A stretch of 64,000 nucleotides of DNA from Diadema setosum (Eukaryota; Echinodermata; Echinoidea; Diadematoida; Diadematidae). Positions 5,921-54,600 of this stretch are shown here, piece after piece. A program made the position numbers and the translations under genes. The notes below the pieces were generated by a model that did no database searches, was not told the DNA's origin, and saw nothing but the letters and a program-made list of their open reading frames with translations. Position 1 is the stretch's first letter. The number at the start of each line of letters is the position of its first letter. Location: NCBI RefSeq assembly GCF_964275005.1, contig NC_092695.1, positions 12,477,697 through 12,541,696 of the forward strand, read 5' to 3'.

Positions 5921-6825
5921 GATGAAAGAAAAGATATTAATTCATTATCTAATATATTGTCCTACAAATTTTGATAGTTGCACCAATTTTCAACGTGTCA
6001 CCCGTCTTTTTTACGGTTTTGGACACTTACAGCCTATAAATATATATATATATATATATATACATTGGCGGATCCAGAGGGGGCGCAACCGGCGCACGCC
6101 CCCCTTTATTTTTCGTTCAAAACAAAAACAAAAGAAATAAAAAGAAAAAATGAAATGAAACCCGGAAGTGGCACCAGAAATATTAGTCACGCCCCCCCCC
6201 CCCTTTACAGAATTCCTGGATCCTAAATGCGGATGAACCTGCAGTCAATGAACTTGTTTCATTACTTCTGCTGTCAAAAGCTCTATACCTTGAGGACATC
6301 GCGCACTCTCCATTGTAGGATAGAATCACCATGTTTATAATGTGAGATATGAGAAAGGAAGGAGAAATCGGTGCTTAAGTTTGACATCATTATTCCTCTT
6401 ACTGGTCCTCCATTCGGAAAAGCGCAAGAGTTGAAAACTTGGTCTCCATCGGGAATCGAACCATGGTCTTTGGCATGGAACCCCAACGCCTTAACCGCTC
6501 AGCCACGGAGACGTCATTATGCGCATATTCCTTTGTTTTTTTTTTGGGGGGGGGGGTGGGAGCAGAGAGTTATGAATAACTACCAGCTGCGTGCCTCAGC
6601 TGGATCTTCTAATGAGATTCTCGTACCGGTGAATGAATTGGGATAATATTTTGCGTAAGAAGTCACCGCTACAACAGCTTTTTGGGTTCTCCTGAATAAT
6701 TTTGCATATGTGAGATATGAAAAAGGAAGGAGAAATCGGTGTGTAACTTTCACATCATAATTCCTCTTTCCTCCTTTTCGGAAAAGCGCAAGAGTTGAAA
6801 AAAAAAATATATATAGGGACCTATG

Positions 6826-15611: not shown

Positions 15612-16314
15612 GCTAGGGTCTGCTTTGGGCAAGCAGTATGAACAGACGAGAGGCTGCTTTTTCAGAGTGGGCTTTCGAACCTCCTCGAGGAGACTCTGAA
15701 ACCCGCTAGCAGTATTAAATGGGGTACTATACATGCATGCATACACACAAACATCCATAGGGCCACGCACGCATGCAACCATTCCCAGTTTACCGTCGAT
15801 GGTGTACATGGGTATTTATTTGGTCTTTTCTTTCCATCAAGACACTATCTGCCAAGGTCCTTTCCTTCATCCCTTAGCAATAACTTCCCCAACTTCACTG
15901 CCATTGTATATATGAGACGTCCTTCTCCCTCCCCTAAATCCTTTGCTCTCTTTTCAAACACGAACAGGCTATACAATAGAGTTACTTGGGTACCTAAGGG
16001 GGGGGGGGTCACAGTGCACCCCCCCCCCCCAGGACTCCTCGAAACTTACATTTTCAGGATCCTCATGACATACCAAAACATAATCAAGATGTTAACAGGA
16101 ACGAAAAGTGGCTGTTCTAGGTGAAATTTAATGTATTCTATTGTTTTTCATAATTTCTTATGTATTTCTTTGTTTTTCAACTTTTTCAACTTTTGTTTTT
16201 TCTTTGTTTTTCTATTGGAAATTGTCACTGACCACTTTTCTACCATAATTAGCACAAAACTAATCAATGAAAGTGATTAATTGTAAAAATAGTGGAAAAG
16301 TGAGCAAAGAAAAT

Positions 16315-16391
16315 GGGATTCCATCGGGATTCGAACCCGAGACCTCCGGATTGCTAGACCGGTGCTCTACCGACTGAGCTATAGAAAGCCC
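16315..16391 (-). tRNA. tRNA-Ala(AGC)-like, array unit 1
   Basis: A box TAGCTCAGTCGG and B box GGTTCGAATCC are intact, and TTTT follows the 3' end at once, so it is a plausible RNA polymerase III unit. The D stem GCTC/GAGC and T stem TCGGG/CCCGA are perfect. The anticodon loop CTAGCAA gives AGC; the stem has a T31-T39 mismatch. In the standard register the outer two acceptor pairs fail (C-C, T-T); an extended pairing GGGCTTTC/GGAATCCC has one mismatch. Position 3:70 is T:A, not the G:U that marks alanine tRNAs, so charging with alanine is doubtful. Confidence 0.7.
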
Positions 16392-16641
16392 TAGTGCAGT
16401 GTTCGTCCCGGAAACCCTTAATTCTCAATGCTCGGGTGGTCAGAAGCTATAGCAGTGTGTTTGTGTGTGACACACACGCACACACTTGAACCTGGCATAA
16501 ACCCGAAGGATAATTCAACTTGGGGATAAATGCGAGGGATCACCGAAGTGATGCAGCTTTTTTGAGTTTGTAACAAATAAAGACAGAATAAACTGACCAG
16601 AAAGAATATAAATTATTAGTGGAAAAGTGAGCAAAGAAAAT

Positions 16642-16718
16642 GGGATTCCATCGGGATTCGAACCCGAGACCTCCGGATTGCTAGACCGGTGCTCTACCGA
16701 CTGAGCTATAGAAAGCCC
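16642..16718 (-). tRNA. tRNA-Ala(AGC)-like, array unit 2
   Basis: Same sequence as unit 1, 327 bp further on, with the same boxes and TTTT stop. Confidence 0.7.
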
Positions 16719-16968
16719 TAGTGCAGTGTTCGTCCCGGAAACCCTTAATTCTCAATGCTCGGGTGGTCAGAAGCTATAGCAGTGTGTTTGTGTGTGACAC
16801 ACACGCACACACTTGAACCTGGCATAAACCCGAAGGATAATTCAACTTGGGGATAAATGCGAGGGATCACCGAAGTGATGCAGCTTTTTTGAGTTTGTAA
16901 CAAATAAAGACAGAATAAACTGACCAGAAAGAATATAAATTATTAGTGGAAAAGTGAGCAAAGAAAAT

Positions 16969-17045
16969 GGGATTCCATCGGGATTCGAACCCGAGACCTC
17001 CGGATTGCTAGACCGGTGCTCTACCGACTGAGCTATAGAAAGCCC
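16969..17045 (-). tRNA. tRNA-Ala(AGC)-like, array unit 3
   Basis: Same sequence as unit 1, spacing 327 bp. Confidence 0.7.
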
Positions 17046-17295
17046 TAGTGCAGTGTTCGTCCCGGAAACCCTTAATTCTCAATGCTCGGGTGGTCAGAAG
17101 CTATAGCAGTGTGTTTGTGTGTGACACACACGCACACACTTGAACCTGGCATAAACCCGAAGGATAATTCAACTTGGGGATAAATGCGAGGGATCACCGA
17201 AGTGATGCAGCTTTTTTGAGTTTGTAACAAATAAAGACAGAATAAACTGACCAGAAAGAATATAAATTATTAGTGGAAAAGTGAGCAAAGAAAAT

Positions 17296-17372
17296 GGGAT
17301 TCCATCGGGATTCGAACCCGAGACCTCCGGATTGCTAGACCGGTGCTCTACCGACTGAGCTATAGAAAGCCC
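17296..17372 (-). tRNA. tRNA-Ala(AGC)-like, array unit 4
   Basis: Same sequence as unit 1, spacing 327 bp. Confidence 0.7.
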
Positions 17373-17622
17373 TAGTGCAGTGTTCGTCCCGGAAACCCTT
17401 AATTCTCAATGCTCGGGTGGTCAGAAGCTATAGCAGTGTGTTTGTGTGTGACACACACGCACACACTTGAACCTGGCATAAACCCGAAGGATAATTCAAC
17501 TTGGGGATAAATGCGAGGGATCACCGAAGTGATGCAGCTTTTTTGAGTTTGTAACAAATAAAGACAGAATAAACTGACCAGAAAGAATATAAATTATTAG
17601 TGGAAAAGTGAGCAAAGAAAAT

Positions 17623-17699
17623 GGGATTCCATCGGGATTCGAACCCGAGACCTCCGGATTGCTAGACCGGTGCTCTACCGACTGAGCTATAGAAAGCCC
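17623..17699 (-). tRNA. tRNA-Ala(AGC)-like, array unit 5
   Basis: Same tRNA sequence. The 5' flank carries an extra tata at about 17700-17704, the only length variant in the array. Confidence 0.7.
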
Positions 17700-17953
17700 T
17701 ATATAGTGCAGTGTTCGTCCCGGAAACCCTTAATTCTCAATGCTCGGGTGGTCAGAAGCTATAGCAGTGTGTTTGTGTGTGACACACACGCACACACTTG
17801 AACCTGGCATAAACCCGAAGGATAATTCAACTTGGGGATAAATGCGAGGGATCACCGAAGTGATGCAGCTTTTTTGAGTTTGTAACAAATAAAGACAGAA
17901 TAAACTGACCAGAAAGAATATAAATTATTAGTGGAAAAGTGAGCAAAGAAAAT

Positions 17954-18030
17954 GGGATTCCATCGGGATTCGAACCCGAGACCTCCGGATTGCTAGACCG
18001 GTGCTCTACCGACTGAGCTATAGAAAGCCC
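17954..18030 (-). tRNA. tRNA-Ala(AGC)-like, array unit 6
   Basis: Same sequence as unit 1, 331 bp from unit 5 because of the tata insert. Confidence 0.7.
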
Positions 18031-18280
18031 TAGTGCAGTGTTCGTCCCGGAAACCCTTAATTCTCAATGCTCGGGTGGTCAGAAGCTATAGCAGTGTGTT
18101 TGTGTGTGACACACACGCACACACTTGAACCTGGCATAAACCCGAAGGATAATTCAACTTGGGGATAAATGCGAGGGATCACCGAAGTGATGCAGCTTTT
18201 TTGAGTTTGTAACAAATAAAGACAGAATAAACTGACCGGAAAGAATATAAATTATTAGTGGAAAAGTGAGCAAAGAAAAT

Positions 18281-18357
18281 GGGATTCCATCGGGATTCGA
18301 ACCCGAGACCTCCGGATTGCTAGACCGGTGCTCTACCGACTGAGCTATAGAAAGCCC
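18281..18357 (-). tRNA. tRNA-Ala(AGC)-like, array unit 7 (innermost left)
   Basis: Same sequence. It is transcribed away from the array centre. Its 3' spacer has ctgaccgg where the other units have ctgaccag. Confidence 0.7.
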
Positions 18358-18560
18358 TAGTGCAGTGTTCGTCCCGGAAACCCTTAATTCTCAATGCTCG
18401 GGTGGTCAGAAGCTATAGCAGTGTGTTTGTGTGTGACACACACGCACACACTTGAACCTGGCATAAACCCGAAGGATAATTCAACTTGGGGATAAATGCG
18501 AGGGATCACCGAAGTGATGCAGCTTTTTTGAGTTTGTAACAAATAAAGACAGAATAAACT

Positions 18561-18574
18561 GTTAAACAGAATAA
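18561..18574. other. Centre of the inverted tRNA array
   Basis: gttaaacagaataa separates the two arms. The left arm ends in agaataaact and the right arm starts with agtttattct, its reverse complement. The tRNA genes on both sides point outward. The spacer itself repeats part of the arm sequence (acagaataa), as expected of a template-switch join. Confidence 0.7.
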
Positions 18575-18777
18575 AGTTTATTCTGTCTTTATTTGTTACA
18601 AACTCAAAAAAGCTGCATCACTTCGGTGATCCCTCGCATTTATCCCCAAGTTGAATTATCCTTCGGGTTTATGCCAGGTTCAAGTGTGTGCGTGTGTGTC
18701 ACACACAAACACACTGCTATAGCTTCTGACCACCCGAGCATTGAGAATTAAGGGTTTCCGGGACGAACACTGCACTA

Positions 18778-18854
18778 GGGCTTTCTATAGCTCAGTCGGT
18801 AGAGCACCGGTCTAGCAATCCGGAGGTCTCGGGTTCGAATCCCGATGGAATCCC
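18778..18854 (+). tRNA. tRNA-Ala(AGC)-like, array unit 8 (innermost right)
   Basis: Inverted relative to units 1-7; same sequence, both internal boxes and TTTT at 18856-18859. Confidence 0.7.
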
Positions 18855-19104
18855 ATTTTCTTTGCTCACTTTTCCACTAATAATTTATATTCTTTCTGGT
18901 CAGTTTATTCTGTCTTTATTTGTTACAAACTCAAAAAAGCTGCATCACTTCGGTGATCCCTCGCATTTATCCCCAAGTTGAATTATCCTTCGGGTTTATG
19001 CCAGGTTCAAGTGTGTGCGTGTGTGTCACACACAAACACACTGCTATAGCTTCTGACCACCCGAGCATTGAGAATTAAGGGTTTCCGGGACGAACACTGC
19101 ACTA

Positions 19105-19181
19105 GGGCTTTCTATAGCTCAGTCGGTAGAGCACCGGTCTAGCAATCCGGAGGTCTCGGGTTCGAATCCCGATGGAATCCC
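19105..19181 (+). tRNA. tRNA-Ala(AGC)-like, array unit 9
   Basis: Same sequence as unit 8, spacing 327 bp. Confidence 0.7.
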
Positions 19182-19431
19182 ATTTTCTTTGCTCACTTTT
19201 CCACTAATAATTTATATTCTTTCTGGTCAGTTTATTCTGTCTTTATTTGTTACAAACTCAAAAAAGCTGCATCACTTCGGTGATCCCTCGCATTTATCCC
19301 CAAGTTGAATTATCCTTCGGGTTTATGCCAGGTTCAAGTGTGTGCGTGTGTGTCACACACAAACACACTGCTATAGCTTCTGACCACCCGAGCATTGAGA
19401 ATTAAGGGTTTCCGGGACGAACACTGCACTA

Positions 19432-19508
19432 GGGCTTTCTATAGCTCAGTCGGTAGAGCACCGGTCTAGCAATCCGGAGGTCTCGGGTTCGAATCCCGAT
19501 GGAATCCC
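19432..19508 (+). tRNA. tRNA-Ala(AGC)-like, array unit 10
   Basis: Same sequence as unit 8, spacing 327 bp. Confidence 0.7.
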
Positions 19509-19758
19509 ATTTTCTTTGCTCACTTTTCCACTAATAATTTATATTCTTTCTGGTCAGTTTATTCTGTCTTTATTTGTTACAAACTCAAAAAAGCTGCATC
19601 ACTTCGGTGATCCCTCGCATTTATCCCCAAGTTGAATTATCCTTCGGGTTTATGCCAGGTTCAAGTGTGTGCGTGTGTGTCACACACAAACACACTGCTA
19701 TAGCTTCTGACCACCCGAGCATTGAGAATTAAGGGTTTCCGGGACGAACACTGCACTA

Positions 19759-19835
19759 GGGCTTTCTATAGCTCAGTCGGTAGAGCACCGGTCTAGCAAT
19801 CCGGAGGTCTCGGGTTCGAATCCCGATGGAATCCC
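19759..19835 (+). tRNA. tRNA-Ala(AGC)-like, array unit 11
   Basis: Same sequence as unit 8, spacing 327 bp. Confidence 0.7.
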
Positions 19836-20085
19836 ATTTTCTTTGCTCACTTTTCCACTAATAATTTATATTCTTTCTGGTCAGTTTATTCTGTCTTTAT
19901 TTGTTACAAACTCAAAAAAGCTGCATCACTTCGGTGATCCCTCGCATTTATCCCCAAGTTGAATTATCCTTCGGGTTTATGCCAGGTTCAAGTGTGTGCG
20001 TGTGTGTCACACACAAACACACTGCTATAGCTTCTGACCACCCGAGCATTGAGAATTAAGGGTTTCCGGGACGAACACTGCACTA

Positions 20086-20162
20086 GGGCTTTCTATAGCT
20101 CAGTCGGTAGAGCACCGGTCTAGCAATCCGGAGGTCTCGGGTTCGAATCCCGATGGAATCCC
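20086..20162 (+). tRNA. tRNA-Ala(AGC)-like, array unit 12 (outermost right)
   Basis: Same sequence as unit 8. The array stops 72 bp beyond it at atttgttac, inside what would be the spacer of the next unit. Confidence 0.7.
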
Positions 20163-21469
20163 ATTTTCTTTGCTCACTTTTCCACTAATAATTTATATTC
20201 TTTCTGGTCAGTTTATTCTGTCTTTATTTGTTACAATTGTAAAAATAATCAGGTTTTCATGACCTTCATGACAGAGCACCTGTTTTCCATAGGAAATGTA
20301 CACAAAATCACAAAATTGTGCCCGTTTTGGGGAGACATACCGTTACAATAATGGGCGTGACTTCGCAAAAGTATACGCGGATGTTGCAAATTTGGTCTCA
20401 AAAGTTGTGCGAGACCTGACCAAACAAAGTCAAGAAGCCTCGCGACAGATTTATAGCGCGAAACTTTGAGGGGGGAGTGGCGGATCCCCCCCCCCCCCCC
20501 CGTCCTTATGTATGTATGTATATAATATATATGTGCTTACATGTAGGGCCTACATAGTAGGGTACTAAGGGGGGGGGGGGGGTCACAATGCACCCCCAGG
20601 ACTCCTCAAAACTTACTTGACTTTGTTATGTTCAAGTCTCACGCAATTTTTGAGACCAAATTTGCAACTTCCCCGCATACTTTTGCGAAGTCACGCCCAT
20701 TTTTGTAACGGAATGTCGTCCCAAAACGGGCACAATTTTGTGCTTTTGTGTACATTTCCTATGGAAAACAGGTGCTCTGTCATGAAAGTCATGAAAACCT
20801 GATTATTTTTACAATTAATCACTTTCATTGATTAGTTTTGTGCTAATTATGGTAGAAAAGTGATCAGTGACAATTTCCAATAGAAAAACAAAGAAAAAAC
20901 AAAAGTTGAAAAAGTTGAAAAACAAAGAAATACATAAGAAATTATGAAAAACAATAGAATACATTGAATTTCACCTAGAACAGCCACTTTTCGTTCCTGT
21001 TAACATCTTGATTATGTTTTGGTATGTCATGAGGATCCTGAAAATGTAAGTTTCGAGGAGTCCTGGGGGGGGGGGGGTGCACGGTGACCCCCCCTTAGGT
21101 ACCCGACTAAGTATACACACGTAGGCCTACCCATGCACTCACGGGAAAGAAACAATGGGAAAAGAAAACAAAAATCAAATCACTATTCCAAGGTGCTCAC
21201 ATTTTTCAGTTATGCAACATGATCTCTTAAAAATATTCAAATAACAAAAACGAACAATCCCATAAGATCTGCAGTTACTTCCAGATTGATTCCACGCTGA
21301 TTTAGATTACATTCAATTGCAAATACCTCCAAGTACAAAAAGGAACAACTAATGTTAGCCTTGATTAAAATCGGGAAATATTGTCCATTGCCTTATGCCT
21401 GCTTGTCTTCACAAAAATGTTTCAAGCTCCTGCTCCTACTGCACAAATGATAATGATAGTAGCGATGAT

Positions 21470-51600: not shown

Positions 51601-54600
51601 ATTTCAAAACCAATTTCATCAAATAAACATTGACTTCCTTTTGGAATTACATTCCCTTTATATTACATGAGAGGTTTCTCACTATCTCTCCAAGAAATGT
51701 TAGAAACCTGAAGTTAGTTCTCAACCAAAACTATACGATCCCTTTAACTTACAAATGGAGCACACATATTTGCATGTGAATTTACTTTTCGCTATGGATA
51801 TAAAAAAGGTCCAAATATTCAACTTCTAAAGCCATGTTACTAAAGCTATCTTCTTCTTCAAATTTCACTTACATTGTACATATTGTACATACATATCACA
51901 AAAAAAGAAAAAAAAAAACCTCTTTTCTTCATAACAGTGCAGAAAAACATAGACAGAGTCACAAAAGCAAAGTCTTCAACTGCCACAAAGTAACCATTTG
52001 GTTTGAACCATTGTCTCTGACTCACCAACAGCAATCATTGCAATAGGGATGGCCAGTGAGACGACCAAGAAGATGGATACAATGGCTGGAGAAAGAGAAT
52101 AAGAAGATGTGATTGCAATATGAATCAAACACTTCCTCTGAATACAGTGACCTTTGACCTTGGCTTGTAACCATTCACTACTATCATTTTATCTTTCGTG
52201 GAAAAAAAAAAAAAAACTCTCTGCTTATTCTTATTTGTTCCCCCAATGTATTTACCACTGGTCATTCCCATATGAAGTTAAGATTGAAAAATCCCATTTT
52301 TAGCTAAAAGTTCAGTGACCATTGACATTAGACCTTGGTTACCATTTCAATGCAAAAGCTGTAGGAACAATAAGAAATCAATCTGGGAGTGTATGATTCA
52401 AACTGGATCAAGCTTTGTTTTTTGTTTTTGCATGGGTATAGGGGAGATGGTTCAACACATCATATGTCCAAGAAAATACTGGACACATTCAAAATTTCAA
52501 AATTTTCCACTGCCTTTTCACTTGTTTCTTCACATTTTACTAGCACCAAAATGTTATTAAAGTGACATTGAAACAAAAAAGGAAACCCAAAAGAAACTCG
52601 ATTTCAAAACCGTTTGAAGAAAATGATATCAATATCACATTGGATGCAATGTCTGTTCAGCCCCAAATTGAAGCAAATACTGTTTACTGAAAGAACGCAT
52701 TTGTATGGTTGACAGATATGAGAAATGTATGCATTCTCAAATCTTGACAACAAATTGGTATTGTTGCAACAAAGATAAAACATGTCGATCATAATGCATA
52801 ATTGAATAACTTAAACCATACTATAAATAATCAATACTGTTGCTGGTATAAAATGAGACAAAAAAAAACTAGAAATGTCGCTTTGGCGACTGGTATGCCT
52901 CCGCCATAATGCATGATTTTCCCAATAGGTCTAGATAGTACATGTGGACAATGTGTGATTACATTTTCACGAAATTGGCAAAATACTGAAATGACAAGTT
53001 TGTCACAATGTCTTAAATGTTCACCTTCCTTGACCTAGGTTTAATTGGATGAATAGGAGAGCATGTATCTAGGGATTTAAGGACTTTAACTTGACTTTGA
53101 CCCATTCATACATTTAGGCATTGAGTAATTTTCAAGGTACAGGTGTGGAGAAAAAGTGCAATTTCTGAATTGAATAGTAAATTGTTACCATTTTCATCTG
53201 GCCCTTGACCCTAAAATTCATAAGATAATCACTTTCAGGTAGAACATGCATAAGATGTACTAAGTTTCAAGATAACTTGAGCCACTTCGAGATATGGAGG
53301 AAAAAGTTAGTTCAGCACTTTCACTTGATCTTTGACCTTTTGACCTTTGAGGCAAAAAAAGAAGAAAAAAAAACTTTCCAGAAAATTTCTATTAGGTTAC
53401 ACATGCATACACCAAGTGTAAAAAAATAATAACCCTGCTGGCATTGCATAAATATGAGGGAAATAGTAAAATTTTGAAGTGTTGCACTTGACCGTTGACC
53501 CCTGACCTTTGACCCCATGAACCCTACATTCTCTAGATAATCACTTCCAGTCAGTACATGTATATACTATGTTCCATGAAGATACCTTGAACAATTTTCC
53601 AAGGCATGGAGAAAAAAAAGAAGTTTTGATATTTTTACTTGACCTTTTGACCTTTGACCTTTGACCTCATGACCCAAACTTTCACCAGAGAATTTTAATT
53701 GGGTAATACATGTTTACACTAAGATTCAAGAAAATATCTTCAGGCATTCAATAGATATGGCGAAAATAGTGAAATTTCATGTATTTGACCCTGACCTTTT
53801 GACCTTTGACCTTTGACCTCATGACGCAAACTTTCACCAGAGAATCTTAATTGGGTAATACATGTACACATGTATACACTAAGTTTCAAGAAAATATCTT
53901 CAGGCATTCAATAGATATGGTGGAAAAAGTGAAATTTTATGTATTTGACCTTGACCTTTTGACCTTTGACCTTGAGCATGTGCACCCAAAAGTTGATAGG
54001 CACAACTTCACCCCCTAATACACATACATGCCAAGTTTCATTAGGATACCTCAACAGGTTTTGATAGTTACCTTGTCCACAAAATTCATTACGGACGGAC
54101 GGAAGGACGCATGGACGGACGGACGGACGGACGGACGGAAGGACGGACGGACGGACAACCCGAAAACATAATGCCTCCGGCACCACTTCGTGGCGGAGGC
54201 ATAAAAAAAAAGACAGAAAGGTCACATTTCCTCCAACTCGCTTTTGTCCGCAGGGTTTTGAACAGTCTAAAAGGGCTGACCATGCAGCACATGTCAAGGG
54301 GCACAAGACACACACAAATATAAACTATGCACTTGACACAATTAAATACTCACGCCAAGTTTATCAGCATGCGGCACATTGATTTGCTGATGTACATGTA
54401 AGTCAACATTGCAGAGATTAGGACTATGAAAAACACTGTTGCAGATTGCGCATTCTCATTGTGTTTCACTGCCAGTCATAGAAGTAAAATACTTGTTGAC
54501 TTATGCGGGGTGATGAACACAGAATTTTCCTAGGGTTCATAGCCACATAGGCCATTTGTTGACTTGTAAATGTCAACTCACGCAAAGAATTTCATTTGAA

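Follow-up and report, generated by a model that had tools for sequence, protein, structure and literature searches.

Within a 64,000-nucleotide stretch of the genome of Diadema setosum (contig NC_092695.1, positions 12,477,697 to 12,541,696 of the forward strand; termed here the window) lies an array of twelve transfer RNA (tRNA)-like sequences, each carried by a 327-bp unit and each called by ARAGORN, within 16315-20162, as tRNA-Ala(AGC), the first seven on the minus strand and the following five on the plus strand. The copies of the unit are near-identical--the exceptions being one copy of 331 bp and one with a single substitution--and Rfam confirms all twelve tRNA-like sequences at 55.4 bits apiece. 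Here this array (termed W) is compared with its closest relatives in the same genome. The mitochondrial contig of that genome (15,708 bp) has a COX1 that reads open for 536 residues under code tables 5 and 9 but not under table 2; table 9, that of echinoderms, was preferred, since it makes AAA an asparagine at a place where this residue is conserved and since, by eye, COX1 seems to be followed by ND4L and COX2, all of which would suit a sea-urchin-like echinoderm. The 327-bp unit, with its degenerate tRNA-like sequence, is spread as preformed, often mirror-image strings; what is directly observed is that the insertions are dispersed and flanked by duplications, that their ends prefer two sites, that the tRNA-like copies are oriented outward and that the units are homogeneous across arms. 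These strings are best read, with a probability of about 0.75, as a non-autonomous, retrozyme-like element of head-to-tail units that would be copied by the enzyme of a Penelope-like element (PLE), which combines a reverse transcriptase (RT) with a GIY-YIG domain.

The window array and its empty site

The two arms of W terminate at different points of the unit--the A arm at unit position ~0 (..CTTTTCCAC/TA) and the B arm at ~50 (..TTTATTTGTTACAA)--and their inner ends face each other at unit positions 24 and 25 (Table 1). The array bears no long reading frame, the longest stop-free frame that overlaps it being 78 amino acids. Rfam microRNA matches at its centre and elsewhere fall below gathering scores and were set aside as consequences of the perfect inverted repeats.

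On both sides the array is flanked by the 13-bp word AATTGTAAAAATA. The window has only three perfect occurrences of this word: these two, at 16279 and 20235, and a third at 20804, in reverse complement, which stands uninterrupted in the opposite arm of the hairpin that hosts the array; in this respect the preliminary description of the locus is confirmed. When the host sequence is restored by joining 16019-16291 to 20248-20422 (448 bp) and is compared with the reverse complement of 20629-21076, 432 of the 448 positions are identical and there are no gaps; the empty site is therefore real and, together with the duplications, bears out the earlier proposal that the array was inserted as one unit. 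The host itself is a foldback element (window 15990-21090) with nested inverted arms and with G- and C-runs near its ends. The window also contains an unfilled relative of the host repeat of another array (L022), since 57130-57456 matches the joined flanks of that array at 84% across the insertion point.

Table 1. Features of the window array and its host hairpin (positions in the window)
Feature	Position	Strand	Remark
Host hairpin, left arm as far as the insertion	16019..16278	.	
Target duplication, left copy, 13 bp AATTGTAAAAATA	16279..16291	.	final 2 bases match the unit too
A arm, 6.9 units (TRF) of 327 bp (one of 331)	16290..18561	-	tRNA-like copies face outward (leftward)
tRNA-like copy 1	16315..16389	-	ARAGORN
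tRNA-like copy 2	16642..16716	-	ARAGORN
tRNA-like copy 3	16969..17043	-	ARAGORN
tRNA-like copy 4	17296..17370	-	ARAGORN
tRNA-like copy 5	17623..17697	-	ARAGORN; inside the 331-bp unit
tRNA-like copy 6	17954..18028	-	ARAGORN
tRNA-like copy 7	18281..18355	-	ARAGORN
Centre, 13-nt filler separating the arms	18562..18574	.	by eye, a partial repeat of neighbouring unit sequence
B arm, 5.1 units (TRF)	18575..20236	+	tRNA-like copies face outward (rightward)
tRNA-like copy 8	18780..18854	+	ARAGORN
tRNA-like copy 9	19107..19181	+	ARAGORN
tRNA-like copy 10	19434..19508	+	ARAGORN
tRNA-like copy 11	19761..19835	+	ARAGORN
tRNA-like copy 12	20088..20162	+	ARAGORN
Target duplication, right copy, 13 bp	20235..20247	.	
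Host hairpin, interrupted arm resumed	20248..20422	.	
Host hairpin, opposite arm (uninterrupted, empty insertion site)	20629..21076	.	13-bp word once, 20804-20816

A dispersed family of insertions

One DNA search of the genome (912.7 Mb, 102 contigs) gave 204 matches, the best 40 of 1726 candidates being scored; the 40 arrays considered here are W and 39 clusters among the matches listed, and are a set of nearest relatives rather than one drawn at random. Genome-wide, a 55-nt tRNA-like core with at most 3 mismatches occurs 759 times, as against 0 times for a reversed-pattern control. The arrays are dispersed over many contigs and range from ~1.4 to 18 units; the longest (L015, on the 135-kb contig C60) spans 5976 bp, and all of its 18 full-length units equal the majority row. 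Of the arrays, 24 have the inverted layout, and in the other 16 all units point in one direction. The tRNA-like copies face away from the centre in 24/24 inverted arrays, as they do in 4 further inverted clusters found outside the 40 arrays among the core matches listed.

Target duplications are a general property of this family. With position limits applied, and counting bases that also match the unit, a duplication of at least 9 bp is present in 32 of the 40 arrays; on the same counting of unit-shared bases, one of at least 12 bp is present in 23 of the 24 inverted arrays. The best word common to both edges of an array reaches at least 11 bp in 31/40 arrays (in one of which, L032, the word is array sequence and there is no duplication) versus 1 of 389 mismatched edge pairs, 4 of which reach at least 9 bp. 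The possibility that copies elsewhere might lack duplications, raised at the outset as a way in which the idea of a mobile array could fail, is thus not borne out, and it is all but certain that the arrays are mobile retro-insertions. Perfect inverted repeats can, as a general matter, mislead assemblers; the 40 arrays, however, share a common grammar while differing in their flanks and duplications, and they carry array-specific variants, which makes an artefact of assembly the least credible of the explanations considered.

The duplicated sequences are AT-rich (84%, versus 62% in the flanks), and the sites of 23 inverted arrays resemble one another further. On the 5' side, T, G and T occupy positions -6, -5 and -4 in 17, 13 and 16 of the 23; at the mirror positions past the duplication, A, C and A occur in 16, 10 and 14; and the first two bases past the duplication are G in 10/23 and T in 15/23. 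These preferences amount to an approximate mirror motif, TGTaac-[duplication]-GTtACA, which was derived from the same 23 sites on which it was later tested, the base frequencies being assumed and the p values left uncorrected. The unit's own B end has the sequence GTTACA and so resembles a target half-site, possibly by coincidence.

Two preferred end sites

When the arrays are read outward in the direction of the RNA, their outer ends fall, in 62 of 64 cases, at unit positions 324-13 (termed A, ..CACTTTTCCAC) or 41-61 (termed B, ..TCTTTATTTGTTAC), two windows that were drawn from the same data and that cover 38 of the 327 unit positions. Every classifiable inverted array combines one A end with one B end (22/22, with no A/A or B/B case), where the chance of this combination is at most 0.5 per array. 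Two of the 24 inverted arrays were left out of this classification: L040, one outer end of which lies at unit 154 and which has no duplication, and L045, one outer end of which lies at unit 21 and appears by eye to be a B end with an indel. Among the 16 one-way arrays the outer end is A in 12 and B in 4.

This pattern of ends matches the 'tail' signature of PLEs, that is, two adjacent internal RT starts. (Published systems are compared here as they are described in excerpts of the cited papers.) In PAc, a PLE of the lizard Anolis, both target strands are cut and extended, and RT has two start sites, adjacent to each other and internal to the RNA; what separates them appears in the genome as a 'tail' of 30-40 bp, a mark that the excerpt calls unique to PLEs; the targets of PAc are AT-rich (Frangieh 2024, PMC11167929).

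Target-primed synthesis, as the preliminary description had suggested, fits the arrays, and could also be the work of a long interspersed nuclear element (LINE)-type element that copies the unit as a tandem short interspersed nuclear element (SINE), in which case the inverted arrays would be twin-priming products. LINEs, too, are suited by 13-bp duplications, by variable 5' ends and by the short shared stretches at array centres, and the RNA polymerase III (Pol III) boxes within the tRNA-like part are as in SINEs. Yet the outer ends do not mark a single RNA 3' end but two internal positions, both of which are represented in 22/22 classifiable inverted arrays; no A-rich tail is seen at the 44 array ends inspected; and the targets share a mirror motif. 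A LINE-type origin is accordingly unlikely, and PLE machinery is the probable means by which the element is copied.

The tRNA-like part

The A and B boxes of the unit (TAGCTCAGTCGG and GGTTCGAATCC) appear intact with respect to the Pol III A/B box consensus. The ARAGORN cloverleaf, by contrast with a working tRNA, has acceptor mismatches C:T and T:T, an anticodon-stem mismatch T:T and T:A at 3:70, where alanine tRNAs require G3:U70, and the Rfam tRNA match spans only model positions 3-68 of 71. A working tRNA-Ala gene was rejected on account of these stem mismatches and of the lack of G3:U70; hence the 'twelve tRNA genes' first described at this locus stand as twelve tRNA calls, which are degenerate copies and probably not functional alanine tRNAs. 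The tRNA-like part is taken for a predicted Pol III promoter or processing module of the SINE type: it resembles tRNA-derived SINEs in having Pol III A and B boxes within the tRNA-like part, where its role as a promoter is a prediction. The SINE-like Sm-alpha elements of Schistosoma are likewise present in high copy and called as tRNA (tRNA-Gln) but, unlike the 327-bp unit, they are linked to a retrozyme-type hammerhead repeat and carry a hammerhead, according to the source excerpt (PMC2770079). Elsewhere in the window, an isolated weak tRNA-Gly(TCC) call (6441-6512, 32.1 bits) is perhaps the head of a SINE.

A string of homogeneous tandem units with a tRNA call is also what one would see if a functional tRNA gene cluster had grown by unequal crossing-over and had been moved by DNA-level events. 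Such a history is highly improbable: the degenerate cloverleaf, the occurrence of arrays on many contigs and the two preferred ends count against it, and the target duplications and the empty site contradict it.

Array centres and the template

The inner (5') ends of the arms, at which synthesis would have stopped, pile up within unit positions 265-309, which is the 3' half of the tRNA fold (20/64, versus 8.8 expected, for an interval picked after inspection of these ends), as expected were a folded RNA slowing the enzyme. At the centres, the two arms join at points that differ by over 11 unit positions in 16/24 inverted arrays and by no more than that in 8 (2.4 expected, p 0.0007), an excess from which it is likely that two complementary DNA (cDNA) ends are joined via short complementary stretches. 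The template switch that had been postulated at the centre of W is not needed, since the arms start at two preferred RNA sites and their junctions are so often distant.

The excess of close junctions also lends something to self-priming, in which a single cDNA folds back and copies itself into an inverted array, as in the model proposed, with an antisense template, for rotifer Penelope (Arkhipova 2013, PMC3846280, as excerpted). Fold-back, however, predicts the same site at both ends, where 22/22 arrays have A plus B; the arms are further apart than 11 positions in two-thirds of the centres (16/24); and the 331-bp unit and the substitution of W are each confined to one arm. On the strength of the A-plus-B ends and the distant junctions, the view that inversion arises through self-priming alone was rejected, and as an overall account self-priming is very unlikely; different sites at the two ends favour instead two primings on a sense RNA.

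Units agree closely within each array. Among 172 full-length units, the mean number of differences is 0.45 within arrays and 0.39 between opposite arms, compared with 1.59 between arrays. The variant 211T>C (numbered by alignment column) is present in 10/10 full-length units of W, in both arms, and in 0/162 units of other arrays, while 30A and 30T (alignment column 30) are never mixed in any of the 35 arrays with at least 2 full units (L040 combines 30T with a deletion at that column). Because units are near-identical within arrays and across arms, with fixed array-specific variants, the data suggest repeated copying of a single unit, for which a ring is the simplest form; the earlier conjecture of a reverse-transcribed multimer from a circular or tandem RNA fits these data, and a circular template of a single unit is favoured, albeit less firmly than copying by PLE machinery.

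Relation to Penelope-like elements and retrozymes

The preliminary description held that no described class of elements has these properties. Two classes come close. PLEs, as excerpts describe them (PMC3846280, PMC11167929), share with the present arrays head-to-head inverted repeats, tandem copies, duplications, AT-rich targets and two adjacent start sites, with one tailed end per inverted pair, as in the 22/22 classifiable arrays here. In the Penelope of Adineta, inverted pseudo-long terminal repeats (pLTRs) are mostly head-to-head, one of them having an optional 31-bp tail, and these pLTRs are able to mobilise a foreign, unrelated gene (PMC3846280). Animal retrozymes, in turn, are non-coding, non-autonomous tandem arrays, from dimers up to large multimers, of 170-400-bp units, a range (with ~300 bp as the approximate unit size) that includes 327 bp; PLEs have been named a strong candidate for moving them, with circular RNA as the proposed template (Cervera and de la Pena 2020, PMC7229834, in part). 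Target duplications of retrozymes, when present, exceed 4 bp, and duplications occur here too; neither the inversion of arrays nor the two-site rule for ends, both features of the present family, is mentioned in that excerpt of the retrozyme description (PMC7229834).

The arrays nevertheless fall outside a strict definition of either class, to judge from the unit's sequence, because they are without RT or endonuclease and without a hammerhead. PLEs encode RT and GIY-YIG and the 327-bp unit encodes neither, so that it would be at most a non-autonomous passenger. Animal retrozymes are defined by a type I hammerhead (PMC7229834), and PAc carries a hammerhead as well (PMC11167929), in the words of both excerpts; in the 327-bp unit none was found, the core CTGANGA being absent from both strands and Rfam reporting no ribozyme family in the array at E-values up to 5. 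Helenus, Ajax and Cassandra, as excerpted (PMC10886601), are long terminal repeat (LTR) elements in which the compared sequence lies inside the LTR; the arrays here, with their two different ends, are laid out differently. A search of openly licensed literature by title and abstract opening gave no description of a tRNA-bearing array of PLE type.

Copying by a PLE enzyme might proceed as follows. The unit would be transcribed, possibly with the Pol III boxes of its tRNA-like part as promoter, into a putative RNA that is multimeric or circular, and a PLE protein would bind this RNA near the A-B segment. At an AT-rich target with mirrored half-sites (TGT../..ACA), the enzyme would cut the two strands at a stagger of ~13 nt; cDNA would be primed at A by one of the target ends and at B, which lies 40-50 nt beyond, by the other, and the RNA would be copied repeatedly round from each. 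The two antisense cDNAs could then be end-joined, often via short shared stretches, and filled in, yielding an inverted array that has an A end opposite a B end and is flanked by a duplication; single priming alone would yield a one-direction array.

PLE genes are present in this genome, as judged from predicted domains. There are 51 GIY-YIG matches (from the best 150 of 247 candidates scored); one locus (L049) has an open reading frame (ORF) that carries RVT_1 and GIY-YIG, and another (L050, C4:41438500-41442600) has a PLE-like open frame of 961 codons whose protein is 35% identical to that of L049 over the RT part. The L050 frame lies between inverted repeats that are identical over at least 421 bp, perhaps marking a recent insertion. 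Neither PLE has an Rfam hammerhead at E-values up to 1, and comparison of the two proteins with the other loci analysed and with the window revealed no additional PLE.

Several observations weigh against this reading. No PLE partner was found when the A-B segment was sought in L049 and L050: L049 has a single 23-nt, 87% antisense match to unit 28-50, which lies inside the ORF (E 0.017) and is taken for chance, and L050 has no match in a plus-strand search. TTTT runs directly follow the tRNA-like part, so that Pol III may not transcribe the whole unit; either it continues past these runs, or the RNA is the product of a different polymerase. Duplications are 13 bp here as compared with 8-10 bp in rotifer Penelope (PMC3846280), the A-B spacing is ~45-50 as compared with the published PLE tail of 30-40 bp, and the start sites of PAc are the same on both strands, the one-of-each rule here being stricter (PMC11167929; both sources as excerpted). 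Eight of the 40 arrays (L009, L017, L023, L026, L027, L032, L036 and L040) lack a 9-bp duplication. The spacing of the mirror motif is blurred, being high relative to shuffled sites at 9-14 and 17, with the best values at 10 and 13. Finally, variants are mixed within L010 (270A>G in 6/15 units), L016, L034, L040 and L041, which a one-unit circle does not predict; either some templates were longer or conversion occurred later.

The arrays constitute a retrozyme-like element that bears the PLE-type two-start 'tail' mark in 22/22 classifiable inverted insertions, which bears on the question of which retrotransposon moves retrozymes--a 2020 review (PMC7761336, in part) describes animal retrozyme repeats as being without a conserved motif that reveals the mobilising retrotransposon. 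They suggest that the hammerhead is dispensable for this lifestyle, and they offer data from nature on the way in which PLEs may assemble head-to-head inserts. A bolder version, which is rather doubtful, is that the family is a mobile circular RNA that resembles retrozymes and has lost, or never had, the ribozyme: its circles or unit-length templates would be generated by way of the tRNA-like module with the help of the host's tRNA enzymes, and a Penelope-type RT would prime both target strands simultaneously on one ring. If true, mobile RNA circles would have a second route of origin, one based on protein, and the mobilising RT would be pinned down.

Other tandem repeats

Tandem repeats of ~143-166 bp with GCGAGCGAGC words, alike in the two loci, accompany the arrays at L009 (5189-5711) and L040 (6512-6791); they were considered as a second retrozyme family and rejected, Rfam giving no match at E-values up to 0.5. 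The window itself has, at 53638-54022, a 160-bp tandem repeat with TTGACCTTTGACCT words, and by eye a similar repeat is present in L023 at 1980-2431.

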